Below, one piece after another: positions 8,706 to 64,000 of a stretch of DNA of 64,000 nucleotides. The DNA comes from Brachypterus glaber. Lineage: Eukaryota > Arthropoda > Insecta > Coleoptera > Kateretidae. The stretch lies in NCBI GenBank assembly GCA_958510825.1, contig OY294046.1, positions 47,969,794 through 48,033,793 on the forward strand. The letters run 5' to 3'. Position 1 is the first letter of the stretch; each line of letters opens with the position of its first letter. The translations under genes were made by a program, and so were the position numbers. A model generated the notes under the pieces. It saw only the letters and a program-made list of their open reading frames with translations. It did not search any database and was not told the DNA's origin.

Positions 8706-8861
8706 CTTGCAAGGGCATAGAAGATATTGGATTTGGTAATATACTAAAAAATTCACCCTTATTATTAAAATATTGGATCTCCTCAAATATATATTTTGCT
8801 TTTAAAAAGCTCGCTAAAAAGGAACTCTGCGGTACAAAATTATTGAGATTATTATTAAGCT

Positions 8862-8875
8862 ACTATAGCATATTA
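8862..8875. repeat. 14-bp target-site duplication, left copy
   Basis: ACTATAGCATATTA, repeated exactly at 10018-10031. The two copies bracket the hammerhead-bearing tandem element and mark it as a discrete insertion. Confidence 0.85.
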
Positions 8876-8954
8876 GTAAGGACAGAAATTTTTAATTTTA
8901 AACAAAATTATAAAAATATTAATTTATTATTCCATCAATCTATTTTCTAATCAT

Positions 8955-9029
8955 CGTACAGAGTGATATTGGTAGACTGACAGTTTTGGGCTGTTGGCCC
9001 TCTTCAGTACCAAGAGTCAACTCTGCACG
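8955..9029 (-). ncRNA. type I hammerhead ribozyme, unit 1 (G12 mutated)
   Basis: On the minus strand: helix I strand CGTGCAGAGT, internal loop, TTGGTA, core CTGAAGA, helix II GGGC-CAACA-GCCC, then AAAA, a 2-bp helix III (CT-GTC-AG), TC, and the helix I return TACCAA...ACTCTGTACG. The predicted cleavage is between 8975 and 8974. The conserved GAAA reads AAAA here, so G12, the general base, is lost. All helices remain intact. From known hammerhead chemistry I infer that this copy is strongly impaired. Confidence 0.85.
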
Positions 9030-9308
9030 CTGATTAAAAAAACGTTTTTAGACTTTACTCGCAAAAGGAATATAGCCATTAGATTGATGTAGACTTGTGC
9101 GCCATCTATTTCTAGATGTAGACAACTACTCATACCTCTCCTAATCTGGAGACTTTGAATGGTAGCAAGTTGAAGACTTGTGTGTCTCAAGCACATAGTA
9201 CCACTAACGGGTGGTTAGACGTAAAATTAGTAAGGACAGAAATTTTTAATTTTAAACAAAATTATAAAAATATTAATTTATTATTCCATCAATCTATTTT
9301 CTAATCAT

Positions 9309-9383
9309 CGTACAGAGTGATATTGGTAGACTGACAGTTTCGGGCTGCTGGCCCTCTTCAGTACCAAGAGTCAACTCTGCACG
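9309..9383 (-). ncRNA. type I hammerhead ribozyme, unit 2 (core intact)
   Basis: All invariant positions are present on the minus strand: CTGAAGA (C3 to A9), GAAA (G12 to A15.1), and TC before the scissile bond (U16.1, C17), cleaving between 9329 and 9328. Helix II is GGGC/GCCC closed by CAGCA. Helix III is 2 bp plus the A15.1-U16.1 pair with loop GTC, the minimal form known from Penelope and retrozyme hammerheads. Helix I is TTGGTA/TACCAA, an internal loop (TGACTC/TATC), then CGTGCAGAGT/ACTCTGTACG with one G-U pair. The internal loop could make the loop I/loop II contact typical of fast hammerheads. Confidence 0.9.
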
Positions 9384-9662
9384 CTGATTAAGAAAACGTT
9401 TTTAGACTTTACTCGCAAAAGGAATATAGCCATTAGATTGATGTAGACTTGTGCGCCATCTATTTCTAGATGTAGACAACTACTCATACCTCTCCTAATC
9501 TGGAGACTTTGAATGGTAGCAAGTTGAAGACTTGTGTGTCTCAAGCACATAGTACCACTAACGGGTGGTTAGACGTAAAATTAGTAAGGACATAAATTTT
9601 TAATTTTAAACAAAATTATAAAAATATTAATTTATTATTCCATCAATCTATTTTCTAATCAT

Positions 9663-9737
9663 CGTACAGAGTGATATTGGTAGACTGACAGTTTCGGGCT
9701 GCTGGCCCTCTTCAGTACCAAGAGTCAACTCTGCACG
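9663..9737 (-). ncRNA. type I hammerhead ribozyme, unit 3 (core intact)
   Basis: Identical in core, helices and loops to unit 2; predicted cleavage is between 9683 and 9682. Cleavage at this site and the next would release a 354-nt monomer with 5'-hydroxyl and 2',3'-cyclic phosphate ends, the substrate for circularisation. A half ribozyme (helix II 3' strand, GAAA, helix III and helix I 3' strand) lies on the plus strand at 9945-9989 in the inverted end piece, but it lacks CTGAAGA and cannot fold alone. Confidence 0.9.
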
Positions 9738-10017
9738 CTGATTAAGAAAACGTTTTTAGACTTTACTCGCAAAAGGAATATAGCCATTAGATTGATGTAG
9801 ACTTGTGCGCCATCTATTTCTAGATGTAGACAACTACTCATACCTCTCCTAATCTAGAGTCTTTGAATGGTAGCAAGTTGAAGACTTGTGTGTCTCAAGC
9901 ACATAGTACCACTAACGGGTGGTTAGACGTAAAATTATTAAGGACAGCAGCCCGAAACTGTCAGTCTACCAATATCACTCTGTACGATGATTAGAAAATA
10001 GATTGATGGAATAATAA

Positions 10018-10031
10018 ACTATAGCATATTA
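10018..10031. repeat. 14-bp target-site duplication, right copy
   Basis: ACTATAGCATATTA, identical to 8862-8875. Sequence from here to about 10727 is AT-rich with no further feature I can support. Confidence 0.85.
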
Positions 10032-10849
10032 TTTAGAGAATTCTAAAACACCCTGTATACATACTATATATGTATATATTTCATAATGTATTCACATTCG
10101 ATTGTTTAAGCGGTCGACCGCAACGATTTTATTGGGTAAAAATTTACAGATATGGTAAAAATTGTATTAAAAAATCAATTATAATATTTTACATCTGATA
10201 ATTATGCAATTCAAAATTAGAGTGGTATCCGCCTTATCATTATTTCAGTTTTAAGGGCTATATTAATAACGCTGGCCTTTAGGATTACCTGATTCTTTGT
10301 TGTGTTTTTTATTCTATTCGTGATTATTTTTGATGTTATGGGTTTAAGGCCTTTATGTCAAGTAAATTTATCTCTGCTTTGTAGAGTACCTCCTACCAAT
10401 CACCAATGGCAATACAATACAATACGAAGTTTTATTTTGCAAAATTAAAACTTGCGATGTTTTGGTTGCGATGTTTCTTTTCGCGAACTAAAGACCGGCC
10501 CCCAGTGAACTATTCACTTTATTAACTGTGAACGTGTTATATTCGATACATCATATAGATTCTAGAAAACCTTGCTATACATAATAAAACAGTAAAAATA
10601 AAGAAATCTGAAAGACGGAGAAATGCTTGACAGTAACCTAATTTCAGATTTATTTTCATTGTCAATAGCATTATCTTAACATTTTATAAAAAGAAAATAT
10701 TCTTATTAGGTAAGTGATTTACTATTTAAACAAGCCGTGAAGATATGTAATGCTACGCATTCCGTATTATACTATTCACAGTAAATGGTCTATTGCATTT
10801 TCCCAAATCCTACTTGAAAAAAATGTCGAAAAATTTTTAAAAAATACCG

Positions 10850-15849: not shown

Positions 15850-16560
15850 TTTTCACCCACTTAGAATAGACTTAGAGAGCTGAAATTTGGTATACATGCT
15901 TATCTGCCCTAGCAAAATAATTTAATGTAAATTTACCCCCCCACCCCCCCCCCCACCCCTAAAATATCAAAAACCTTTTTTTATCCACGTGAGTTAATTT
16001 AAAATTAAAATTGGGTTACGTACTCATCCCGTAATAATAAAATTTTACTATAAAAAAACAACTGTCAACCCACCCCCCATCACCCCCCATGCGGCTAAGT
16101 TAACTCTGAAGGGCCCTCTCTGTTATACCCACTTAGAATAAACTTAGAGAGCTGAAATTTGGTACACATGCTTTTCTACCCTAACAAAATAATTAAATAT
16201 AAAATTTACCCCCCAACCCCCCCACCCCTAAAATATCAAAAACCTTTTTTTTATCCACGTGAGTTAATTTAAAATTAAAATTGGGTTACGTACTCATCCC
16301 ATAATAATAAAATTTTACTATGAAAAAAACAACCGTCAACCCCCCCCCATCACCCCCCATGCGGCTGAAGGGCCCTCTCTGTTATACCTACTTAGAATAA
16401 ACTTAGAGAGCTGAAATTTGGTACACATGATTTTCTACCCTAACAAAATATATAATATATAAAATTTAACCCCCCCCCCCAACATAGCACATGCGGCTAA
16501 GATTCCTTTTACCCACTTAGACAGCTAAAGTTCGGTACAATATAATTTTACATAAAATCT
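15850..16560. repeat. direct repeats with ACCCACTTAGAATA
   Basis: The block ACCCACTTAGAATA, GCTGAAATTTGGTACAC, a poly-C tract and TATCAAAAACC recurs at 15855, 16137 and 16386, spaced about 280 and 250 bp, with a decayed fourth at 16511. A related but more diverged array lies at 27440-28080, and one inverted block at 41785-41880. No coding content. Confidence 0.8.
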
Positions 16561-16613: not shown

Positions 16614-16911
16614 AAAATAAAACTATATAAAAAACAAGTTTTTAAACTTAAAACCCTTCTATTGATTACGTATTATGTATAACTAAAAAGTAGAAAACAA
16701 GATATACCAATTTACAAAAACGAATTTTTTAAAAGAAGGGTTTTGGAAATGTTGGCAAAAATAAAGAAATCACAATTTCCAAAACCTTTCTTTTAAAAAA
16801 TTCGTTTTTGTAAATTGGTATATCTTGTTTTCTACTTTTTAGTTATACATAATACGTAATCAATATAAGAGTTTTAAGTTTAAAAACTTGTTTTTTATAT
16901 AGTTTTATTTT
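16614..16911. mobile_element. near-perfect 300-bp hairpin element
   Basis: Arms of about 130 bp (AAATAAAACTATATAAAAAAC inward to AATTTTTTAAAAGAAGG, and the complement) surround a short loop near 16755-16775. Few mismatches suggest a recent event or conversion between the arms. Foldback MITE of unknown family. Confidence 0.8.
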
Positions 16912-19838: not shown

Positions 19839-19896
19839 GCTTTTCTTAAAAGGGAATTATCATATGTATAGATTTCCCGCTTCTTTAGAATAGGTA

Positions 19897-20961
19897 CAGT
19901 TGGATCCGAAAAAAAACAAGATAGAAAATCTAGTTGTGTAAATTGAATAATTGTTTACAAACAACGCAGTTGTCAATGTTGACAATATTTGTCAAAATTA
20001 TTTATAATTATTATAAAGTACATAATCCATAAAGGATTTAATTAAATTAAGTACATAATTAGAAATGCATCAATTAAATGATTAAGAAAGCTCAAGCTAT
20101 TGGGTTATTGGAAGGAGGATGTGAGCAAGTAGACTTGGCAAAGTTTAATGATTCGGAGAGTTTGGTTAAGATTGAAGAAAAAATGGATACAGGAGGAAAC
20201 AGTTAAAAGGCTTGCAGGATCGGGAAGAAGAAAGTCAAAATTTACTTAATTATTTAAGAGAACACCCTTTACGAGACGCGGTGCAGGCTATAAACTATAA
20301 AAAAAAAGTCCAACCACCGCCTGCCGCCTCATCGATAATTCCGAGATGGTAAATTTATATGCAGCAAAAAAAAACCTTTTTTAAACGAAAATCATAATTT
20401 TTATAAATTATATATTTCATTACTAAGGAGTTCTAAGTTTTATTTCTCATAAGATTTACTAAATATTGTGTTTAAATGTTTTATATGATTAAATATTCTA
20501 AAGGTTTTTTCAGTTTACTATTTATTAGATATATCTGGACCCCGGAGGTAAACAACACCATGTCACAAAAACGTAATTTTTCAGGAGAGCAAGTTTTCGA
20601 TTCTTTTTTAACATTAAATGCATGTTCTAGGGGCTCTCCATTAATTTTGTAAAAAAGAAGGAATTATCACATAAAAATAACCATCTTGGAAAGACTTTTT
20701 CTTGCTGCTACAGATCAAGAACCTTTATATTTGCTAGTTTTCTATTTCTTCCAGCTTCATATAACAACAGTTACTTTATCTAACATTATTCGCATTCGCG
20801 CATTATCTGTAATAACTTATTAGAGACTACTAATAAAGAAAAACCAACAATATGTCGAATTATTCTAACCTCTTTCCTAAAATCTTACTTAAACTATAAA
20901 ATAATTAATAAAATTAATATTTTGGCATATTTAAAACTTGCATTTTTTGTGGATCCAACTG
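19897..20961 (+). mobile_element. Tc1/mariner-like element A, defective
   Basis: Flanked by TA on both sides, with TIRs CAGTTGGATCCGAAAAAAAA (left) and the matching GGATCCAACTG (right). The TA dinucleotide duplication and a Tc1-type N-terminal transposase remnant at 20078 place it in Tc1/mariner. At 1065 bp it is shorter than autonomous members and contains no catalytic DDE/D region that I can recognise. Its right end shares the TA at 20962-20963 with element B. Confidence 0.85.
20078..20344 (+). pseudogene. Tc1-like transposase N-terminal (HTH) remnant
   Basis: From the ATG the frame reads MIKKAQAIGLLEGGCEQVDL then AKFNDSESLVKIEEKM before a TAA at 20204. This matches the paired-like helix-turn-helix of Tc1 transposases (growth-control helix, then AKxFNVSESxV recognition helix). 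A frameshifted continuation gives a GSGRRKSK-like linker and LLNYLREHPLRDAVQAIN, resembling the second HTH. Stops and shifts show it is dead, and the DDE catalytic core is absent. DNA-binding role inferred from the family. Confidence 0.7.
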
Positions 20962-20963
20962 TA

Positions 20964-22013
20964 CAGTTGGACCCAGAAAAAATTCAAGTTTTAAATATGC
21001 CAAAATGTCAATTTTATTAATTATTTATAGTTTAAGTAAGATTTTAAGAAAGTGGTTAGAATAATTTGACATATTAGTCAAGTATATTAGTTAAGTAAGT
21101 CTCTAATAAGATTACAGATAATACGTGAATGGAAATAATATTAAATAACAGTAACTGCTATTATTACCAATATGAAGCTGGAAGAAATGGTAAACTAGCA
21201 AATATAGAGGTTCCAGATCTGCAGAAGCAAGTCTCACCAAGATGGTTATTTTTATGTTAATATTCCTTCTTTACAAAATTAATGGAGAGCCCCTAGAACT
21301 AGCTCGAAGCTTATTTGGGGCTCTCCATGAATCTGTATACCAAATAATTAAATAAATAAATTTCGAATATTAAAGTATTTAAAAAAATACATAATAAATA
21401 ATAAACTAAAAAAACATTTAGAATATTTAATCATATAAAAAATTTAAACACAATATTTAGTAAATCTTATGGGAAAGAAAACTTTGAACTTCTTAGTAAT
21501 GAAAAATATAATTTATGAAAATTATGATTTTCTTTTAAATAAAGTTTTTTTTCTTCATAAAAATTTCCAATCTCGGAATTTCGACCCAGGAAAATTTGTA
21601 TCGTTTATAGCCTGCACCGTGTCTCGTAAAGGGTGTTCTCTTAAATAATTAAGTAAATTTTCACTTCCTTCTTCCCGAGCCTGCACGCCTTTTAACCGTT
21701 TCCTCGTGTATCCATTTTTTCTTCAATCTTAACAAAACTCTCCGAAACATTAAACTTTGCCAAGTCCACTTGCTCACATCCTACTTCCAATAACCCAATA
21801 GCTTGAGCTTTCTTAACATCATTTAATTAATGCATTTCTAGTTATGACTTAATTAAATTAAATCCTTTATTGATTATGTACTTTTATGTACTTTATAATT
21901 ATTATAAATAATTTTGACAAATATTGTCAACTTTGACAACTGCATTGTTTGTAAACAATTATTCAATTTACGCAACTAGGTTATCTATCTTGTTTTTTTT
22001 TCGGATCCAACTG
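20964..22013 (-). mobile_element. Tc1/mariner-like element B, inverted copy of A
   Basis: The reverse complement of element A over essentially its full length, beginning CAGTTGGACCC immediately after the shared TA and ending GGATCCAACTG next to TA at 22014. It carries an extra duplication of GGGGCTCTCCAT near 21290-21325. Together A and B make a palindrome of more than 2.1 kb. Confidence 0.85.
21600..21819 (-). pseudogene. Tc1-like transposase HTH remnant (copy in element B)
   Basis: Minus-strand counterpart of 20078-20344, reading KKAQAIGLLEVGCEQVDLAK then FNVSESFVKIEEKMDT before a stop. It keeps the FNVSES recognition-helix motif, which is altered to FNDSES in copy A. A one-base change near the ATG puts the start out of frame. 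Non-functional. Confidence 0.65.
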
Positions 22014-22019
22014 TACTAC

Positions 22020-27439: not shown

Positions 27440-28080
27440 TTCGACCACTTAGAATATACTCAGAAAGCTAAAATTTGGTACACATGCTTAAACTAGGCAA
27501 TACAATTTTATATAAAACTTACCTTCCACCCCCACCCCTAAAATTAAAAAAAAAAACATTTTTTACCCACACAAGATTATTTAAAACTAAAATTAGGGTA
27601 CATACTCATTTAGAAATAATAAAATTTTACAATAAATTCTACATCCCCCCTCGTCTTCCCATCACCTCCATAAGCGTAAGGCTAAGTTAACCCCTCTCTC
27701 TGTTTCACCCACTTAAAATATACCTAGAAAGCTAAAATTTGGTACACTTGCTTAACTCAGTTGAAAAAATAATTTTATATAAAAATTTTCCCATAATCCC
27801 CAACCCTAAAATTAAAAAAATCCATTTTTTACCCACATGAGATAATTTAAAACTAAAATTAGGTTACACACTCATCCAGTGATAATAAAATTTTAAAATA
27901 AATTTTACATCCCCTCTTATCTCCCCATCATCCCCCATACGCATATAAGGCTAGAATAAACGTAGAGAGCTGAAACTCGATACACATGCTTAACTCTGAT
28001 GACAATACAATTTTATATAAAATTTACCCCCAACCTCCCCATCCCTAAAATTTAAAAAAATAACTTTTTTAACCACATCT
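27440..28080. repeat. direct repeats related to 15850-16560
   Basis: Blocks starting CCACTTAGAATATAC or ACCCACTTAAAATATAC, each followed by GCTAAAATTTGGTACAC and a C-rich stretch, recur at about 27443, 27707 and 27955. Same family as the 15.8 kb array, more diverged. Confidence 0.75.
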
Positions 28081-28259: not shown

Positions 28260-28654
28260 AAAAATAAAAAGTAAATGAATAGTAAAAAAACATTTTTAGG
28301 AACAAGCATTTATTTAAGTGCTCTAAAAACAAGAAAATAAATTAATAGTAAAAAAACATTTTTAAGAACAAGCTTTTATTTAAGTGCACTAAAAATAAGA
28401 AAATAAACTTTCAAGTAAATCAAACCCATCATTTTGTTACATTATACAATTTTATATAATATAAAAGCTTGTCGCGAGATTTTCCTGTGTAAATTTCTTT
28501 TATAAAAAATCTCGCGACAAGCTTTTATATCATATAAAATTGAATAATGTAACGAAATGATGGCTTTGATTTACTTAAAAGTGTATTTTCTTCTTTTTAG
28601 TGCACTTAAATAAAAGCTTGCTCTTAAAAATGTTTTTTTACTATTAATTTATTA
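28260..28654. mobile_element. hairpin element with partially duplicated left arm
   Basis: Arms of about 150 bp meet near 28490. The inner stem is AAAAGCTTGTCGCGAGATTTT and its complement, split by a short loop; outer arms carry AAGCTTTTATTTAAGTGCAC. The first 75 bp (28260-28335) are a direct duplicate of the outer left arm. Confidence 0.75.
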
Positions 28655-31168: not shown

Positions 31169-31490
31169 AATCAGGGCCTTCTTTTATTTATGAGATTCGC
31201 TTATGTTCGGAACATAGAACATAATATTCTTTACCAGAAAACATACCTAAAATTGATAGATACTCCGGTTTATCCTCAAACCCTCGATTTATACCAAGCC
31301 ACATACCACACCCAAGTAACACAGTAGCTATAAAGTATCTCTTACCGCTCTTTCACGGCAAAAAATCTAACCAATTGGAATAAATCATTTTCAAACTAAT
31401 GATGTTGATCATTTAATTTTTTTAATAGGTATAGTTTTGTATTCAAACGGATAAGCAGTTCTATCAGTGTAAGAAATTTTTTTTAAATTA

Positions 31491-31987
31491 CCCGGGAAAA
31501 AAAGGTTTATATATTTGAGATATGATCGGATCTCTGTATATCCAAATTTCATGTCCAAGAATATATCAAGAGATCCAATCATATATGCTTATATATAAGC
31601 AGTTATATATCAAGAGATCCAATCATATCTCGTCATATATGAACAGATATGCTTATATATAAGCAGATATAAGCAGATATAATCTATTTCTACAAGTGAT
31701 TAGATATAAAAATATATGTGCATATATCAAGAGATCCGATCATATCTCTTCATATATGAGCAGTTATGCTTATATATAAGCAGTTATATATCAAGAGATC
31801 CAATCATATCTCGTCATATATGAGCAGATATGCTTATATATAAGCAGATATAAGCAGACATATATGACGAGATAACTGCTTATATCTAAGCATATATGAT
31901 TGGATCTCTTGATATATTCTTGGACATGATATTTGTATATACAGAGATCCGATCATATCTCAAATATATAAACCTCTTTTTCCCGGG
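31491..31987. mobile_element. CCCGGG-ended hairpin built of ATATAAGCAGATAT words
   Basis: Ends CCCGGGAAAAAAAGG and TTTTTCCCGGG stand next to TA. Outer arms of about 100 bp (GAGATATGATCGGATCTC, CCAAGAATATATCAAGAG) are inverted. The core is a self-similar series of TATATAAGCAG, AGAGATCCAATCATATC and CGTCATATATGA words, each near-palindromic. Non-coding. A truncated second copy sits at 32213-32614. Confidence 0.8.
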
Positions 31988-32004
31988 TAGCCTATTTTTT
32001 GATA

Positions 32005-32912
32005 ACACAGGCCCACAAATTAAAACAAAAGTGGTCTGCGCCACAGATAGGACCATGATATTCCTATGTATTTTTTCCCGCTGAAACCGAATCTGAACTC
32101 AGTTTAACGCCTACGCTTCCGGATTTTTCTCTACAGCCGCACTATGTTACCAAACGGGAAAAAAGTGAGCAAAATTATTTTATTGTATATTTAAACTTTA
32201 ATGATTAGTATCCAATCCAAAATCCAATCATATCTCGTCATATATATCTGCTTATATCTGCTTATATATAAGCATATCTGCTCATATATGACGAGATATG
32301 ATTGGATCTCTTGATATATAACTGCTTATATATAAGCATAACTGCTCATATATGAAGAGATATGATCGGATCTCTTGATATATGCACATATATTTTTATA
32401 TCTAATCACTTGTACAAATAGATTATATCTGCTTATATCTGCTTATATATAAGCATATCTGCTCATATATGACGAGATATGATTGAATCTCTTGATATAT
32501 AACTGCTTATATATAAGCATATATGATTGGATCTCTTGATATATTCTTGGACATGAAATTTGGATATACAGAGATCCGATCATATCTCAAATATATAAAC
32601 CTTTTTTTCCCGGGTTACTAATTATTTAGAGTTGAAATACACAATAATAATAATATTGGTTACTTTTTCCCGTTTTTTTTTTTACTCTACACTAAAAATT
32701 GTCTCTCTAATCATTGAAAGTTAAAATACATAATAAAATAATGGTGGTCACTTTTTTCCCGTTTGGTAGCATAGTGCGGCTGTAGGGAAAAATCCAGACG
32801 TGTAGAGGTTAAACTGAGTTAAGATTCGGTTTTAGCAGGTGAAAATACCTAGGAACATGATGGTCCTATCCATAGCGCAGACCACTTTTGTTTTTTTTTT
32901 GTGGACCTGTGT
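32005..32912. mobile_element. ACACAGGCCCACAA element, copy 3, hosting another insertion
   Basis: Left end CACAGGCCCACAAA and right end GTGGACCTGTG, each flanked by TAA. Arms extend over 150 bp (ACAAAAGTGGTCTGCGCC, GCCGCACTATGTTACCAAACG and complements). The middle is occupied by the truncated CCCGGG element. Same terminal type as 30679-31168. Confidence 0.75.
32213..32614. mobile_element. truncated copy of the CCCGGG word-built element
   Basis: Repeats the ATATAAGCAG / ATGATTGGATCTC words of 31491-31987 and ends TTTTTTTCCCGGG followed by TTA. The opposite CCCGGG end is missing, so it is truncated or was captured by the host element. Confidence 0.7.
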
Positions 32913-38239: not shown

Positions 38240-39258
38240 AAACAGTTTAATTTTAACAGATATATTTTTGCAAAAATTTTGTATTTGTGTAATGTTGTGT
38301 AATATTCTTTATAAATTACACTGCTCAACACTCAAAAATTTGCAGACACCATTTTACACAGTGGGTTTTTTGCTTATAGTTGTAGTAGAAAAAATAAGTA
38401 AGGTTCAATTATTTTTTTGGACTGTGGATATCTTTTTCATGAAAATTTTATATAAATACTGAAGATGGCTCTGATTTTAATAGGCAACACTTACACACAT
38501 GTGAGATTTGAAAAAATAAAAAGAGTTTTATATTAAATTCAGTAACTGGGAGTTAATCAAAGCAGAACAACAATATTTTGAATTATTTAATATTCATTTA
38601 ATGTTATTTTAATGTTTAAAAGCAAGGAGAAAAAGTTATTTTTATAATTTTTCGTTTTGTTTTTTTTTTTCATACTAAATTTTATTGTGTTGCTCTCCAA
38701 AAAATAAATAAAATATTTCAAAATTTTTGTTTTTTTTTTCTTTTCGATAACCCCCAGTAAAATCTCCGTCACTGGATTAAATCTAAAACTTTTTTTATTT
38801 TTATAAACCACCCTTTTGATTTAGTACTTCATATAAAAATTAGAGTCATATCTTTAGTATTTATATACATTTTTTTCAAAATATATCGAAAAAATGCGAA
38901 AAAAAACTAATTTTTTAAATTTAGAAGCCTATTAAAAGCAAAAACGAATAAAGATATTTTATTTCCTCTTTTTTTTTTCTTAGAGCCCCACTAATAGAGA
39001 ACCAATCCACGTGAAAAAAAAATAATAATTAGACTTTTTTTTACTACAACTATAGGCAAAAAAACACTAAGCGTTATCTAAAAAAAAACGAGCTGATCGA
39101 GAAAAACGAAAAAAGTTTCCGAAATCAGCGCATCAAATATAGCCAGACTCATCTAGCTGTTAGTTAACTAACAGCTCCCCGGTAAATAAAAAAAATGGAG
39201 ATGAAAACTTGGATTTTTAGAATTAACCCCTTCCGCTCCATTGTATCCACGTATGGAT
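38240..39258. other. AT-rich sequence, no gene seen
   Basis: Frames at 38193-38811 are partly SINE and partly A/T homopolymer. No element ends recognised. Confidence 0.35.
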
Positions 39259-39260
39259 AT

Positions 39261-39976
39261 ACAGAGCGGTCCAAAAGTCACCCCCCCCCCCCTCTTAACT
39301 TTTGAACCAGTTGAGATATCGACTTAAAATTTGGAACTTTTAAATAACACAACTTAAACTATCTTTTAGCATATATTTAATACTTTCAGCTCTTAAAATG
39401 TGGGCAGGGGGGCATGGGAGCACATTTTTTTAAATAGAAAGGGGGGTCGTGTAATACATCATTTTAAAGCTTATAAAATTCTCCATTTAACTCCATATTT
39501 TTAAATAAAAAAAAATGGGTTTAAAATGGGGTTAAAATGGGTATTAGTGTCAAAATTCCTCTAAAAAAAACAAATAATTTTTTAAAAATGCCTAATTTCA
39601 TCATAAAAAAATGTTAATTATACTTTTAAACTAATTTTAGTTGACATAAATAAAAATTTATAAAAAAAACTTAAAAATCGAATGTTTTAGCACAAAAAAT
39701 TGAAAAATGAAAACCTTAAATAACATTTTTTAAAAATTAAAAAATATTAGTTTAAATAGAGAATTTTAAAAGCTTTAAAATGGTATATCACACGACCCCC
39801 CTTTCCATTTAAAAAAATGTCCCCCCATGCCCCCCTGCCCACATTTTAAGAGCTGAAAATATCAAATATATGCTAAAAGATAGTTTAAGTTGTCTTATTT
39901 AAGAGTTCTAAATTTGAAGTCGATATCTCAACTCGTTCAAAAGTTAAAAGGGGGGGTGACTTTTGGACCGCACTGT
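39261..39976. mobile_element. foldback element, ACAGAGCGGTCCAAAAGTC ends
   Basis: A 716-bp inverted repeat with TIRs ACAGAGCGGTCCAAAAGTCA / TGACTTTTGGACCGCACTGT and TA on both sides, as for Tc1/mariner-type targets. Arms of 250 bp or more carry poly-C/poly-G tracts and GAGATATCGACTTAAAATTT. A diverged family member lies at 3028-3619 and a terminal fragment at 25661. Confidence 0.8.
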
Positions 39977-39989
39977 ATATATTTTTTCA

Positions 39990-42315: not shown

Positions 42316-42479
42316 TTGTGGGCACAGTGTAAATGATTTAGTGTAAATGATTAATGTAAATAATTGGGTAAATCAACCTAAAATGATAAAAAGTAAATGC
42401 AATATTTTACTGGTTAAATTCTTGATTTGATCATGTGTAGTTAAATAAGTTATAATTATACGTGAACTAGTCCTTACTT

Positions 42480-43642
42480 ATACAGGGTGTATTTGAAATA
42501 GCGTAGGAAATTTTAACAGGTGATTCTACATGATAAATTATGACAAAAAGTTCCTATAAACATATGTCTAAAAATGCGTCATAAGGGAGCTACGCTTCTT
42601 TGAAATTGGCTTAAAAAATCGGTTTATATTTAATAACTCAGGAACCCTTTGAGATATATTATCGAGGTTTTGCACGTGAATTAATCCTAATAAGGCCCAT
42701 CTTTGTATGTAATTTTCACGTACTTATTTAAACCAGGGGTGTGCGAAACGGGGGGGGGCTTATCAGTTTTTTGTCCCAAACTTTTTTCTGTGTAACTTTT
42801 TTGCAATTTTATTTTTGAAATATGAGTCCTCAGGTCAAAATACATAAAAAATGTACTCTTGTTGTAATACTGTAGGATTAACCGTTTTCGAGAAAAGTTC
42901 ATTTGAAGGTGAAATTTCACGGTTCGAGGACGAAAAATTAAATACTAAAATGTCGGAAACCAAAATTTTAATGATGCAATGTTATTCTACATCAAAAACT
43001 AAGAAAAAAAGTTTCCATACATGTAGGTCGAAAAAACGCTTTTGAAGCTACCATAGCCCTTTAAAAATGGTGCATATTTAGGAGACCATAGCTCCATTAG
43101 GATTGATTTTTGGAAGTACCTGTATATGAGGTTTTTTTCTTAGTTTTTAATGTACATTCGCCCTACATCATTAAAATTTTGGTTTTCAACATTTTAGTAT
43201 TTAATTTTTCTTCACCTTCAAATGAATTTTTCTCGAAAACGGTTAATCCTACAGTATTACAACAAGAGTACATTTTTTATGTATTTTGACCTGAGGAATC
43301 ATATTTCAAATATAAAATTGCAAAAAAGTCACAAAGAAAAAAGTTTGGGACAAAAAACTGATAAGCCCCCCCCGTTTCGCACACCCCTGGTTGAAATAAG
43401 TACATGAAAATAACATATAAAACGGGCCTTGGTAGGATTAGTTGACGTGCAAAATCTTGTTGATATATCTCAAAGGGTTCCTGAGTTATTAAATAAAAAA
43501 CGATTTTTTTAGCCACTTTCAAAGGGTCGTAGCTCCCTTATGACGCATTTTTAGACATATATTTATAGGAACTTTTTGTTATATTTTATCATGTAGAATC
43601 ACCTGTTAAAATTTCCTACGCTATTTCAAATACACCGTGTAT
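42480..43642. mobile_element. long-palindrome foldback element, copy 2
   Basis: Second copy of the element at 1393-2570, same termini (TACAGGGTGTATTTGAAATA) and the same internal order. A short deletion in the right arm near 43209 removes the GTCCTCGAAT-GTGGAA segment. Several 60-80 codon frames appear on both strands, as expected from an inverted repeat. Confidence 0.87.
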
Positions 43643-43649
43643 AATATGA

Positions 43650-49430: not shown

Positions 49431-50140
49431 GATTGATTGATTGATTGATTGATGAAGAGAAACAAGATGAGGATTCGTACCTCAAACACTGCAGCCACCT
49501 TCGGGTATATTGTGTTGTTCTTGGGTCTCTTGCTAGTCAAATAGCTTCGTTTCCTTTATCAGGCTTACTAGGCTGTTTACTAGATTTGCATTGGAGAACA
49601 TAGCTTCTGGGTTACCCTTTCCCGGTTGCCGGTGTCTCCAGCGATGTAGAGCCACGCAGTCCACGGAAAAGTCATGTGCAGGGCCGTAGCGAAGAAGATT
49701 TAGTGGAGGGGGAGAAGGTAAAAAAAACAAATTTTTTAGTCTAAAATTACTTTTATCCCTTTGACAAAAAAGTTGACGACTAAGAAAAAAACGTTCCCAC
49801 TACTGCTAAAGTTACAACTTTCATAGTTTTGACCCTAAAATTTGCAATTCGAATTTCAAGATCCACTACTGCTAAAATTACCTACAAGTTTTTTCTTCGA
49901 TGAAAAAGTTGATGACTAAAAAAAAAACATTTTAACTTAGTATGTATGTTAGTAGTAGTTGCAACTACTACATGTAGTAGCAATACTGATAAAATTACAA
50001 CTTTTATATTTTTAACCGATGAAATTTACTTTTTCGAATTTTAAGGTAGGTGGAGGAAGGCTCACTCATCCCCCTATAACTACAGCCCTGGTCATGTGTT
50101 TTTTTCAGGTCGACAAAGGGCATTACAGATCTCTCTATTT
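49431..50140 (-). pseudogene. possible LINE fragment with reverse-transcriptase-like motif
   Basis: After removing the hAT-like insertion (49679-50090), a minus-strand frame reads MPFVDLKKTHDFSVDCVALH then RWRHRQPGKGNPEAMF, ending in TAG at 49533. FVDLKK-HD resembles the catalytic motif A of LINE reverse transcriptases (FVDLKKAHDSVPR type). The minus-strand 3' end carries (TCAA)n at 49431-49452, like a LINE tail. The match is short, so identification is tentative. Confidence 0.35.
49679..50090. mobile_element. hAT-like MITE with exact 8-bp duplication
   Basis: Starts CAGGGCCGTAGCGAAG and ends CTACAGCCCTG, bounded by perfect GTCATGTG on both sides (49671-49678 and 50091-50098). Eight-base duplications and CAGGG/CCCTG ends are hAT hallmarks. 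The 412-bp interior is non-coding. Its left 115 bp is homologous to part of the satellite monomer at 62218 onward. Confidence 0.87.
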
Positions 50141-57216: not shown

Positions 57217-57858
57217 GTGGTAAAATTTACATTTAGGAGTTACTTTTTTATATCATCAAAAAAAAACACAGTATGTGTATCACAAGTAGACATTGCAAAT
57301 GTTCCTAAACAGGTGGACTTTTTATGGGTAGAAGTACAAATTTCGAAAATTAAAATCCAACTACAATGCATATATAGGCTTAATTACATTTTAGAAGAAG
57401 ATAATAAAACTGTAATTAACTTAATTAATCAAGCATTTGAGTCAGACATCCCAACATATATCTGTGGCGATTTTAACTATCCAGAGATTGATTGGGACAC
57501 ATTGACTTTGAGATATCACAAAAACGTGGCACACGATTTTCTAGAAGCGTATAAAAATATGAGTGCAAAACAAGTAATAAACTTCCCAACCAGGAAAAGA
57601 ACGAACAACAGAGATTCACTGCTTGATCTAGTCTTAGTTAATGAAGAGCTGCTTGTATGTGATATGAAGCCTACCGACCCGCTGGGAATTAGTGACCATG
57701 TGGTCATTCAGTTTACATCACAACTAAAACTCAATGTAAGACCAACTCGCAGGATTTTTAAAAGAAACTTTGAGACAGCTGACTATGACCTAATTAAGCA
57801 GTACCTAGGGAAAATCTTAAAAACCGTCCCATCACTTTGGACCAGTGCACCAATGTAA
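57217..57858 (+). pseudogene. LINE endonuclease domain (APE-like), C-terminal part
   Basis: About 214 codons in one frame. Diagnostic motifs: YICGDFNYPEIDWD (residues about 81-94, the D/N active-site motif), LLDLVLVNEEL (about 137) and PLGISDHVVIQF (about 155-166, the terminal SDH catalytic motif). The N-terminal third of the domain, including the first catalytic N and E, is missing. A frameshift near 57830-57852 moves the downstream protein to another frame (CTNVMIQAIEKYIPL...). The enzyme nicks target DNA to prime reverse transcription; this copy cannot be functional. Confidence 0.85.
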
Positions 57859-59804
57859 TGATACAAGCTATAGAGAAGTACATTCCACTAACACAAAAAA
57901 AGTATAACCCTCAAAAACCATGGTTAAATAAAAAATTATTTAGAGAAATTAGAAAGAAAAGAGAACTGTGGGATAAGTAAACTGCTCAAAAAACAGAAGA
58001 AAATTACAGAGTGTATAGGGAACAAAACAATGAACTTAAAAGACATATAAATGACGCAAGAAGAAAATACGAAATCAAAGTAGGTGAATCATCATCCAAA
58101 AAATTCTACAGCTATGTCAAAAAGTCGCTAAAATCAAAAGTAGATGTCGTAACCCTGAAAAGCAGAGATGGAATAATTATGTCTTCCCAAGAAACAGCAG
58201 AAGAGTTTGCCTCTCACTTTGAGGGCGTATTTACCAAAGAAACTGATGGCCCACTACCAACGATTCCGCAAGCTAAATATCTCGACAGATCTATAACAAC
58301 CATTAACTTTACCCAAGAAAATGTACAAGAAGCGATTAAGACCCTGAAGAAAGATTTAAGTCCAGGCCCAGATGGGATACCTGCAGTTTTCCTTCAAAAG
58401 TGTGCAGACGCCCTGGGAACCCCATTAGCCTTAGCAATGACAGATAGTATTAACAGCAACACAATACCAGAACAGTGGAAAACAGCATATATTGTCCCGA
58501 TACATAAGCAAGGAAATAAGTTTCGTCCAGAGAACTATAGGCCAGTCAGTTTAACGAGTAATGTATGTAAATGTATGGAAAAAGTCATTTCTAAGGAGCT
58601 AACAGCCTTCTGCATGGAAAATGGGGTAATCCCTCCAAGCCAACATGGATTTTTACCAGGAAGATCTGTGGAAACTAACTTTCTAGAATGCGTAAACCAA
58701 TGGACCCTGGAAAATGATTCAGGGCAGCCAACAGATGTAATATACCTAGACTACGAAAAGGCCTTTGACAAAGTACCGCACAGACCACTGCTACTAAAGC
58801 TTGATCATTTTGGAGTCAGAGGACAGCTTTGGAAATGGTTAAAAAATTTCCTGAAAAACAGATACTTTAGGGTCAAGCTAAATGGTATTCTATCGGAAAT
58901 CAGACTAATTCTAAGTGGGGTCATTCAAGGTTCAGTCATTGGTCCCCTCCTGTTCCTGATATTTTTATCTGACTTGGTAGACGAAATTCTTACTCACATG
59001 GTTCTCTTCGCAGATGATGCCAAGCTTTTCTGCAATCCACTTTTAAAGGCAAGAGAATTTGTCAGTGACCTACAGAAAATAACCGAATGGACAAACAAAT
59101 GGTCTATGTGTCTAAACATAAAGAAATGCACAGTCCTACACATTGGTGCCAACAACCCAAGAAGACTCTATACGATAGGCGGTGAGCAACTAAGAAAAGT
59201 AGAATCACAAAAAGATCTTGGCGTTATCATTTCATCAGACCTAAAATGGGAAACCCACATTATCAAAATGGTGAAAAGAGCCAACTCCTTGATATACCTC
59301 ATTAAAACGGCATTTAGAAACCATTCAGTAGCAAACATATTAAAACTCTATAAATCATATGTGCGACCGATTTTAGAGTATGCCGAATGTGTTTGGAATC
59401 CGTACTACATAAAAGACATAGATCTGCTAGAAGGTGTCCAGAGAAGAGTATCCAAAATTCCACCTGAACTCAAAGAACTGTCTTACACTGAGCGCCTTTC
59501 TTTTATGAACCTCACAACTTTAAAAGAGAGACGGACACGAGGTGACCTTATTCAGACATATAAAATTTTAAGTAAATATTACTCGGTGAACCTGGATATG
59601 TTTCGGATGAACAATACCAATTTAAGAGGTCATGAAAGAAAGGTCGTAGAGGAAAGGTGTGCAGAACTACCAAGGAAGAACTTCCTTTGTAATACAGTGG
59701 CATACAGGTGGAATGCACTAAACGAGGAAACTGTGCTAGCAGAAAGTGTCAACCAATTCAAAAACAGGCACACTACCCTACCTAAAATCTGTGATACAAA
59801 ATGA
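57852..59804 (+). pseudogene. LINE reverse transcriptase, nearly intact
   Basis: From 57852 the frame is open except for one TAA at 57978-57980, then uninterrupted to the stop at 59802-59804 (597 codons after 58011). Motifs in order, counted from 58011: SPGPDGIP (about 117), YRPVSLTS (about 176), HGFLPGRS, YLDYEKAFDKVPH (motif A, about 244), GVIQGSVIGPLLF (motif B, about 303; GVPQGSVLGP in most relatives), and LFADDAKLF (catalytic FADD, about 333). The C-terminal part has the Y-x-ERL...LTTLKERRTRGDLIQTYKI region of CR1/Jockey-type LINEs. All three catalytic aspartates are present, so decay is recent, but the missing 5' end makes it immobile. Confidence 0.9.
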
Positions 59805-61500: not shown

Positions 61501-62217
61501 AAAATAATGTTAATTTTTTTTTTGCGAAAAACAAAAAAGTTTTGAAATATTTTTTTTAACAAATTTCAAAAACAAAAAACTAATACATTTTTGTTTTTGT
61601 TTTTTAACGGAAAAAAAATTGAAAAAATGCTTTTTTCAAAAAAAAAAAACACCATAACTTTTTTTGCGAAAAACGAAAAAAAATTGAAAAAAACATTTTT
61701 GAAAATTATAGTTTTTTTAATTTTTTTAAAAAGTTTAACCCCCATAAATTATTTTGTTTTTGGAGGAATTACTTTCAAAATTTTTAGTATTGATCGTTAT
61801 AATAAAAGTAATTTTTTTGTTATTTTGCAAAAAAAACTGATTTTGTCAAAAAATGCAAAAATGCGAAAAAAAGCAACAAAACTTTTTTAATTTGTTTTTC
61901 ACTTTCCAAAATTAGGAAAGTAAAAGATAAAGGCACCCATTTATTTTTTATAACATTTTTCTGTATATAGATCATCATTTTTATAATTACACCAAAGACT
62001 TTTGAGTAATGACTAAATATAAACGAATGATGCGGACGTTACACATGTACAAATACCTAAACAAAGTGTTTCAGTAAATATTTTTGTCATTTTTAGTGAG
62101 AATATAACGTTTATTACAAGATAAATTTTACTTAACTTATAATAGGTAGTGAAATATTACTGTTTTATCTACTACCTATGTGTGGCAGGTTCATTAGAGT
62201 TTGAAAGTTTAGAAGGT

Positions 62218-64000
62218 ATAAACTATTTTATCATTATTACAAGCTTTTATTAGTTTGTCTGTTTGACACCCTCAGTATAATACAGTATTATCCTAGAGCT
62301 GGAAATATTATCCTAAGGTATGTTATATTTTAAAAATTCTAGCCTTACTCCTTTTGACCAGGCCCTGACCAAAACTCAGGGCCGTAGCGAAGGAGATTTG
62401 GTGGGGGGGGGAAGAGGTCAAAAATTACAACTTTTTTAGCCTAAAAACACAACTTTTTTCCTCGACAAAAAAAAGTTCATGACTAAAAAACTATAAACTA
62501 TTTTATCATTATTACAAGCTTTTATTAGTTTGCCTGTTTGACACCCTCAGTATAATACAGTATTATCCTAGAGCTGGAAATATTATCCTAAGGTATGTTA
62601 TATTTTAAAAATTCTAGCCTTACTCCTTTTGACCAGGCCCTGACCAAAACTCAGGGCCGTAGCGAAGGAGATTTGGTGGGGGGGAGGAAGAGGTCAAAAA
62701 TTACAACTTTTTTAGCCTAAAAACACAACTTTTTTCCTCGACAAAAAAAGTTCATGACTAAAAAACTATAAACTATTTTATCATTATTACAAGCTTTTAT
62801 TAGTTTGTCTGTTTGACACCCTCAGTATAATACAGTATTATCCTAGAGCTGGAAATATTATCCTAAGGTATGTTATATTTTAAAAATTCTAGCCTTACTC
62901 CTTTTGACCAGGCCCTGACCAAAACTCAGGGCCGTAGCGAAGGAGATTTGGTGGGGGGGAGGAAGAGGTCAAAAATTACAACTTTTTTAACCTAAAAACA
63001 CAACTTTTTTCCTCGACAAAAAAAAGTTCATGACTAAAAAACTATAAACTATTTTATCATTATTACAAGCTTTTATTAGTTTGTCTGTTTGACACCCTCA
63101 GTATAATACAGTATTATCCTAGAGCTGGAAATATTATCCTAAGGTATGTTATATTTTAAAAATTCTAGCCTTACTCCTTTTGACCAGGCCCTGACCAAAA
63201 CTCAGGGCCGTAGCGAAGGAGATTTGGGGGGGGGGAAGAGGTCAAAAATTACAACTTTTTTAGCCTAAAAACACAACTTTTTTCCTCGACAAAAAAAGTT
63301 CATGACTAAAAAACTATAAACTATTTTATCATTATTACAAGCTTTTATTAGTTTGTCTGTTTGACACCCTCAGTATAATACAGTATTATCCTAGAGCTGG
63401 AAATATTATCCTAAGGTATGTTATATTTTAAAAGTTCTAGCCTTACTCCTTTTGACCAGGCCCTGACCAAAACTCAGGGCCGTAGCGAAGGAGATTTGGG
63501 GGGGGGGGAAGAGGTCAAAAATTACAACTTTTTTAACCTAAAAACACAACTTTTTTCCTCGACAAAAAAAAGTTCATGACTAAAAAACTATAAACTATTT
63601 TATCATTATTACAAGCTTTTATTAGTTTGCCTGTTTGACACCCTCAGTATAATACAGTATTATCCTAGAGCTGGAAATATTATCCTAAGGTATGTTATAT
63701 TTTAAAAATTCTAGCCTTACTCCTTTTGACCAGGCCCTGACCAAAACTCAGGGCCGTAGCGAAGGAGATTTGGTGGGGGGGAGGAAGAGGTCAAAAATTA
63801 CAACTTTTTTAGCCTAAAAACACAACTTTTTTCCTCGACAAAAAAAGTTCATGACTAAAAAACTATAAACTATTTTATCATTATTACAAGCTTTTATTAG
63901 TTTGTCTGTTTGACACCCTCAGTATAATACAGTATTATCCTAGAGCTGGAAATATTATCCTAAGGTATGTTATATTTTAAAAGTTCTAGCCTTACTCCTT
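62218..64000. repeat. 275-bp satellite array, six full units plus a partial
   Basis: Units begin with ATAAACTATTTTATCATT at 62218, 62493, 62768, 63044, 63316, 63590 and 63865 (periods 272-276), and the array runs off the window. Units are nearly identical, differing mainly in poly-G and poly-A lengths. Each monomer joins about 160 bp of unique sequence to about 115 bp homologous to the left end of the hAT-like MITE at 49679 (CAGGGCCGTAGCGAAGGAG onwards). No hammerhead-type core was found in either strand of the monomer. Confidence 0.93.

Follow-up and report, generated by a model that had tools for sequence, protein, structure and literature searches.

The stretch of Brachypterus glaber DNA analysed here (contig OY294046.1; 64,000 nucleotides, hereafter the window) contains a short tandem array, read on the minus strand, that lies within a target-site duplication (TSD). 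From 8876 to 9937 the DNA consists of three head-to-tail 354-bp units with six variable sites in total. Unit 1 (8876-9229), the 3'-most in the sense orientation, is followed by unit 2 (9230-9583) and unit 3 (9584-9937). Three differences separate units 1 and 2, three separate units 2 and 3, and six separate units 1 and 3. Tandem Repeats Finder gives a period of 354, 3.0 copies and 98% matches over 8872-9947. After unit 3, a fourth lap on the minus strand runs for 10 nt (9938-9947) with one mismatch, at 9938, and there the direct copies end. The GC content of the unit is 35.6% and its longest open frame has 65 codons; no open reading frame (ORF) for a reverse transcriptase (RT) or GIY-YIG endonuclease was found within the insert.

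Between the array and the right copy of the TSD sits an inverted partial unit copy of 73 nt on the plus strand (9945-10017), recognised from the inverted repeats and from comparison of the junctions. It corresponds to unit-2 positions 9350-9278, stands head-to-head with the array, and matches units 2 and 3 at every position, including both of the variable sites that it covers. Since it directly abuts the TSD, it is most simply attributed to the same event as the array. The TSD, ACTATAGCATATTA, is a strandless 14-bp sequence that is identical at 8862-8875 and 10018-10031, and the next longest exact match at this spacing in the whole window is 10 bp. The first-pass annotation had correctly given the 14-bp duplication and the array inside it, and had overlooked the inverted copy. 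A search for inverted and direct repeats found no long repeats around the array besides the units and the inverted piece. Further convincing copies of the unit were likewise absent from the 64-kb window, where the best other matches are short, AT-rich and have E-values of at least 0.001.

A type I hammerhead ribozyme motif is present on the minus strand of every unit, and its core is intact in two of the three. In unit 2 (9309-9383; predicted cut 9329/9328) and unit 3 (9663-9737; predicted cut 9683/9682) the core is complete and reads CUGAAGA - GGGC/CAGCA/GCCC - GAA - helix III - C. Helix II is GGGC/GCCC with the 5-nt loop CAGCA. Helix I is long and has an internal loop; its 5' arm is GUGCAGAG-internal loop-UUGGUA and its 3' arm UACCAA-internal loop-CUCUGUAC. 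Helix III can be read either as 2 bp (AC/GU with a 5-nt loop), as had been proposed from the first inspection, or as 3 bp (ACU/AGU) with the triloop GUC. In unit 1 (8955-9029; would-be cut 8975/8974) the catalytic G12 is lost, the G of GAA having become A by a substitution at 8987, which lies in a plus-strand CpG; loop II carries one more change. When both strands of the window were scanned with a full type I descriptor, covering the core and all three helices, the motifs of units 2 and 3 were the sole matches; 100 dinucleotide-preserving shuffles of the same 64 kb gave none.

Curated hammerhead models gave a different outcome. With Rfam 15, no hammerhead was reported in the whole window at the gathering scores, and none at E<=10 in the region 8800-10100; OrzO-P and plastid matches in that region have E-values of about 7 and were set aside as chance. 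The control consisted of 17 viral contigs with, between them, 21 descriptor motifs and 19 distinct cores; of the 19 contigs with such a motif among at least 120 loci, L043 and L101 were excluded for length. Rfam reported none of the 21 as a hammerhead at gathering, and when four of the control contigs were searched in E-value mode, weak hammerhead-family matches overlapped two of five motifs. The control motifs are themselves candidate hammerheads whose core is common to all by selection. Given that none of them was reported at gathering, the Rfam miss on the insert says little; within this small control, the gathering scores overlooked candidate hammerhead motifs of similar general shape.

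A covariance model was built from eight of the 21 viral-contig motifs, those with a similar helix III length, and with the window motifs excluded. Run over the 64 kb on both strands with default filters and E-values up to 10, it returned three matches only. Two of these, at 9324-9366 (unit 2) and 9678-9720 (unit 3), have 30.5 bits and E = 1.1e-7 each, and the third, at 8970-9012, falls on the damaged unit 1 with 24.9 bits and E = 9.2e-6, all of these E-values being rough. In the contigs searched, the model recovered all 11 held-out control motifs at 28.5-42.2 bits; units 2 and 3 score near its lower limit and unit 1 below it. Since the core was fixed in the pattern used to pick the training motifs, its agreement with the model is partly a matter of selection, which is less the case for the outer helices. 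For the hammerhead call, the first-pass annotation had suggested a covariance check and counted the lack of a match as a refutation; the Rfam outcome goes part of the way towards this, and the model from viral-contig motifs upholds the call. The description given by the first-pass annotation, three in-register minus-strand 354-bp units with type I hammerheads, two of them keeping every core base, is confirmed, unit 1 having the G12 to A change.

Two degenerate hammerhead scans of viral contigs, with at least 120 stretches each, gave contigs that are taken to be phage-like. A screen of all 212 loci for two cores 120-700 nt apart revealed no near-identical tandem array resembling a retrozyme. 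Where both motifs were plausible hammerheads, identity over 60 nt reached 0.57 at most; identities of up to 0.68 in the same screen belonged to repetitive stretches that are not hammerhead-like and were rejected. Five viral contigs (L140, L157, L168, L014 and L117) contain two or more hammerhead-like motifs that differ in sequence and are separated by a few hundred nucleotides. Searches with a 28-mer of the unit in viral contigs and with a 29-mer in genome contigs, neither set being an animal-genome collection, gave no match.

One way to account for such an array is as an ordinary satellite, spread by unequal exchange without reverse transcription and carrying the hammerhead as a decayed relic. 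Tandem 354-bp units, one of whose three ribozymes is damaged, would suit this, as would the further satellite-like arrays present in the window. It is nevertheless extremely improbable in our view: the exact 14-bp duplication brackets precisely the array plus the inverted piece, and the array has three units only, the sole convincing ones in 64 kb. The unit, the hammerheads, the TSD, the low GC content and the lack of coding sequence instead give good support to the earlier suggestion that the locus is the insertion record of a 354-nt self-cleaving RNA, and the insert is very probably a non-coding retrozyme.

Repeats of other kinds are found elsewhere in the window. A self-complementary repeat of the foldback type, about 1.2 kb long, is present twice, at 1389-2571 and at 42478-43646, the copies being 86-94% alike, and further large palindromes lie at 19894-22016, 16614-16911, 28336-28653 and 39257-39980. 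Arrays with a 64-bp period at 31489-31989 and 32231-32615 are mutually inverted and 99% identical over 385 bp, giving a large structure able to form a hairpin. The end of the window (62217-64000) is occupied by a 275-bp satellite whose units are 98% alike, and a diverged fragment of its unit, about 78% identical, is present at 49679-49787. Finally, tandem arrays at 15855-16475 and 27445-27939 have periods of 270 and 266 bp, respectively, and are about 71% alike; possibly they represent another dispersed tandem element, and the hammerhead descriptor has no match in either of them.

The ends of the insert can be placed relative to the ribozyme. Position 8876 (sense ...GUCCUUAC) is where the direct copies start, with CUUAC, at an internal point of the unit that is nt 99 downstream of the ribozyme cut; a possible microhomology of 4 nt, ATTA, is shared with the target, and this start lacks a poly(A) or A-rich tail. 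From here the copies run for three full laps and then 10 nt past their own starting point, crossing three cut sites without a break. Because of this continuity, the copied RNA must have been unbroken at these sites, i.e. a circle or an uncut multimer rather than a cleaved monomer. The inverted piece begins at 10017 (unit-2 position 9278), nt 51 downstream of the cut, with 1 nt of microhomology, and the strand that would have primed it ends in AGT, not ATT. The ends at 8876 and 10017 are taken to be the two points at which reverse transcription started; they are 48 nt apart on the unit, and neither coincides with the cut or with the ends of the ribozyme. Just past the direct-copy start, at nt 114-129 after the cut, there is an AC-rich hairpin. 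The TSD has A or T at 11 of its 14 positions (79%, vs roughly 70% in the window).

At the inner junction, the array and the inverted piece overlap only at CAG (9945-9947); apart from these 3 nt, no long overlap and no palindrome was found there. The two presumed cDNAs stop at different unit positions, and unit positions 9240-9277 are missing at the junction. Two cDNAs made from both target strands on one RNA would explain the head-to-head piece, the small gap, the microhomology and the duplication together, and we consider it likely that the insertion was target-primed in this way, with two primers on one RNA.

A possible order of events can be outlined for this locus. The type I hammerheads of a minus-strand tandem transcript would cleave it into 354-nt RNAs, and part of these would be closed into circles; the template read would be such a circle, followed about three times round, or an uncut multimer. 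The protein of a Penelope-like element (PLE) may then nick the target DNA. One target strand would prime a cDNA 99 nt past the cut, giving three laps and 10 nt, and the other would prime on the same RNA 51 nt past the cut, giving 73 nt. Joining of the two cDNAs at the CAG microhomology and filling in of the staggered break would leave the insert and its 14-bp duplication. The layout of the insert is read from its sequence, while the order of these events is what we infer from it. By analogy with PLE insertions, the chances that a PLE protein was the helper look roughly even, and the account as a whole, a single retrozyme insertion that was target-primed by a PLE-type enzyme, seems to us about evenly balanced between right and wrong. 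With more hesitation, and at somewhat less than an even chance, the outer junctions may themselves record PLE-type reverse transcription, in which both target strands prime at two internal sites of one RNA that is unbroken across its cuts.

The same retrozyme could instead have been mobilised by a LINE with an APE-type endonuclease, in which case the inverted piece would be the product of ordinary twin priming. Twin priming of the L1 type yields 5' inversions with target duplications, and is known for inner junctions that have no palindrome but a small gap and a short stretch of microhomology. The junction found here has just these properties, and as its cDNAs end at different unit positions with only CAG in common, it is closer to twin priming. 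A LINE-type element with ORFs for an endonuclease and an RT (Pfam) also lies in the same window, at 57217-59804 on the plus strand. On the other hand, the direct copies start without a poly(A) or A-rich tail, the positions of the two starts within the unit, 51 and 99 nt from the cut, are near the PLE layout, and the target does not resemble TTTT/AA, the consensus target of LINEs. The 14-bp length of the duplication is LINE-like; the 2016 retrozyme paper likened 15-bp duplications in Nematostella to those of LINEs (PMC4918200). On balance, mobilisation by a LINE is a serious explanation but a rather unlikely one.

The RT of that element, which is LINE-type, is the only RT among the ORFs scanned. 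Among the best 120 of 5024 matches in a protein search, its closest match is 60% identical, and the named matches include the beetles Zophobas and Tribolium at about 42% and a stork at up to 41%, which by itself points to an animal host and no further. Of the 27 stop-to-stop ORFs in the window with at least 90 aa, the Pfam scan covered 22, among them the two LINE ORFs, taken from the first start codon; the five others lie in A/T-rich stretches or overlap a scanned ORF. Apart from the two LINE ORFs, none of the 22 belongs to a Pfam family, and none has a PLE domain, a scan of this kind being one that misses decayed pieces containing stops.

Returning to the PLE protein as a possible helper, PLE insertions commonly show a related anatomy, and the comparison can be made with two published sets. 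In vitro, the PLE protein of Anolis cuts and extends both strands, with a preference for an ATT motif in AT-rich DNA (PMC11167929). Reverse transcription starts inside the RNA, at +111 to +118 of the ORF, where the hammerhead cut is at +26; its main start thus lies 85-92 nt downstream of the cut. This start is within an AC-rich stem-loop and has no homology to the cut DNA, and a second start is one 'tail', 30-40 bp, away. Uncut RNA seems to be the main template in vitro, as ribozyme mutants insert equally (PMC11167929). The present insert resembles this arrangement in that both presumed RT starts are internal and lie downstream of a hammerhead, at distances that agree approximately and at one locus. 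The match of the geometry is post hoc, from a single locus, and inexact (99 vs 85-92 nt for the main start, and 48 vs 30-40 for the spacing). Unlike the Anolis start, the direct-copy start shares up to 4 nt with its target, and the AC-rich hairpin seen here is, in relation to the AC-rich stem-loop of Anolis, a lead only. Nor does the target follow the Anolis preference closely, as the presumed priming strand of the inverted piece ends in AGT and the TSD is hardly richer in A and T than the window.

The second set comes from rotifers (PMC3846280). Pen2a of Adineta vaga has two direct pLTRs and, adjacent to them at the 5' side, an inverted pLTR that is 37 bp shorter; a tail of 31 bp is present on one repeat only, and the TSD is 9 bp. 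Head-to-head is described as the most frequent orientation of rotifer Penelope inserts, whose TSDs are 8-10 bp in three examples and lacking in some inserts. The B. glaber insert shares with these PLEs, of the Penelope/Poseidon clade, a shorter inverted piece placed head-to-head at the 5' side, an extension of tens of nucleotides at one end only, and a TSD. In Pen2a, however, there is a 15-bp overlap between inverted and direct repeats, and palindromes are usual at inverted junctions, unlike the inner junction described above, with neither a palindrome nor a clear overlap. The authors of the rotifer study favour self-priming on an antisense template (PMC3846280), and it is for these two reasons that we put the PLE helper no higher than about an even chance.

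It could also be asked whether the array is a truncated or pLTR-only PLE derivative and not an independent retrozyme. PLE repeats do bear type I hammerheads, and they occur in tandem and with inverted pieces. Published descriptions call the PLE hammerheads minimal, lacking both helix III and contacts between loops; the units here have a helix III of 2-3 bp and a long helix I with an internal loop. No coding frame leaves the unit, whose longest has 65 codons. The insert further differs from a PLE in its much smaller size and in having no ORF for an RT or GIY-YIG endonuclease. The absence of coding sequence and a hammerhead fuller than the minimal PLE forms therefore indicate that the insert is not itself a PLE, and a derivation from PLE remnants is improbable. 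On this distinction the first-pass annotation was imprecise, having taken minimal hammerheads as the mark of retrozymes; in the published descriptions, canonical type I hammerheads are found in retrozymes and minimal forms in PLEs.

If the PLE account is true, PLE proteins would be the enzymes by which animal retrozymes spread, and a retrozyme would be a parasite that copies the start-site layout of PLEs, with starts about 50 and 90-100 nt past the cut. Animal retrozymes are thought to move via circular RNAs, and LINEs or PLEs have so far only been proposed as their helpers (PMC7229834, PMC11722881, in the parts available); in those same parts of the literature, no insertion footprint is shown. 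The structure of the present insertion is possibly informative. The locus offers a concrete signature of a PLE helper, in which the insertion ends are mapped relative to the ribozyme cut, and this signature can be applied to any genome with retrozymes.

The RNA of one unit is predicted to be strongly self-paired, the circle having a fold of -93.3 kcal/mol vs -66.1 +/- 5.7 for 200 shuffles; the antisense circle is predicted to be nearly as stable (-86.6 kcal/mol). In the most stable predicted fold, CUGA of the ribozyme core is paired with UCAG of the helix III region, and the active hammerhead fold has a predicted cost of +6.3 kcal/mol, alone or within the circle. As tertiary contacts are absent from the energy model, this pairing of the core may mean little. 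Most metazoan retrozyme circles are predicted, in the available text of PMC7229834, to leave the ribozyme free, whereas the best fold here has local pairing in the core. In a minus-strand transcript of 9628-10021, the inverted piece would be complementary to the 3' half of the unit-3 ribozyme, giving a stem of about 73 bp; such a stem might keep the ribozyme from acting or enter small-RNA silencing.

Among known systems, the closest are the metazoan non-LTR retrozymes. As presented in the accessible sections of PMC7229834, these are tandem non-coding repeats of 170-400 nt with type I hammerheads, low GC content, TSDs of more than 4 bp and strongly self-paired RNA, and their hosts already include insects and other invertebrates. 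The insert agrees with them in its tandem 354-bp units, type I hammerhead, GC content of 35.6% and lack of coding sequence, as well as in the 14-bp TSD, the absence of LTRs and the predicted self-pairing of its monomer RNA. The inverted partial copy at its 5' end is a difference, not found among the retrozymes as described in the available text. Judged by its sequence, it is a new family of metazoan non-LTR retrozyme, the unit being its own as far as searched. The SMalpha or W-element repeats of Schistosoma mansoni are also short, non-coding and equipped with type I hammerheads, and show signs of mobility (PMC8490949, PMC6155905). These schistosome repeats carry tRNA sequence, unlike the insert: the Rfam scan of the window, with the tRNA model included, gave no match to it. 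With the LTR retrozymes of plants, the insert has in common non-coding sequence, tandem hammerheads and a circular RNA model (PMC4918200). The plant elements have type III hammerheads, lengths of 600-1000 nt, LTR, PBS and PPT sequences and 4-bp TSDs, whereas the B. glaber insert has type I hammerheads, a unit of 354 nt and a TSD of 14 bp.
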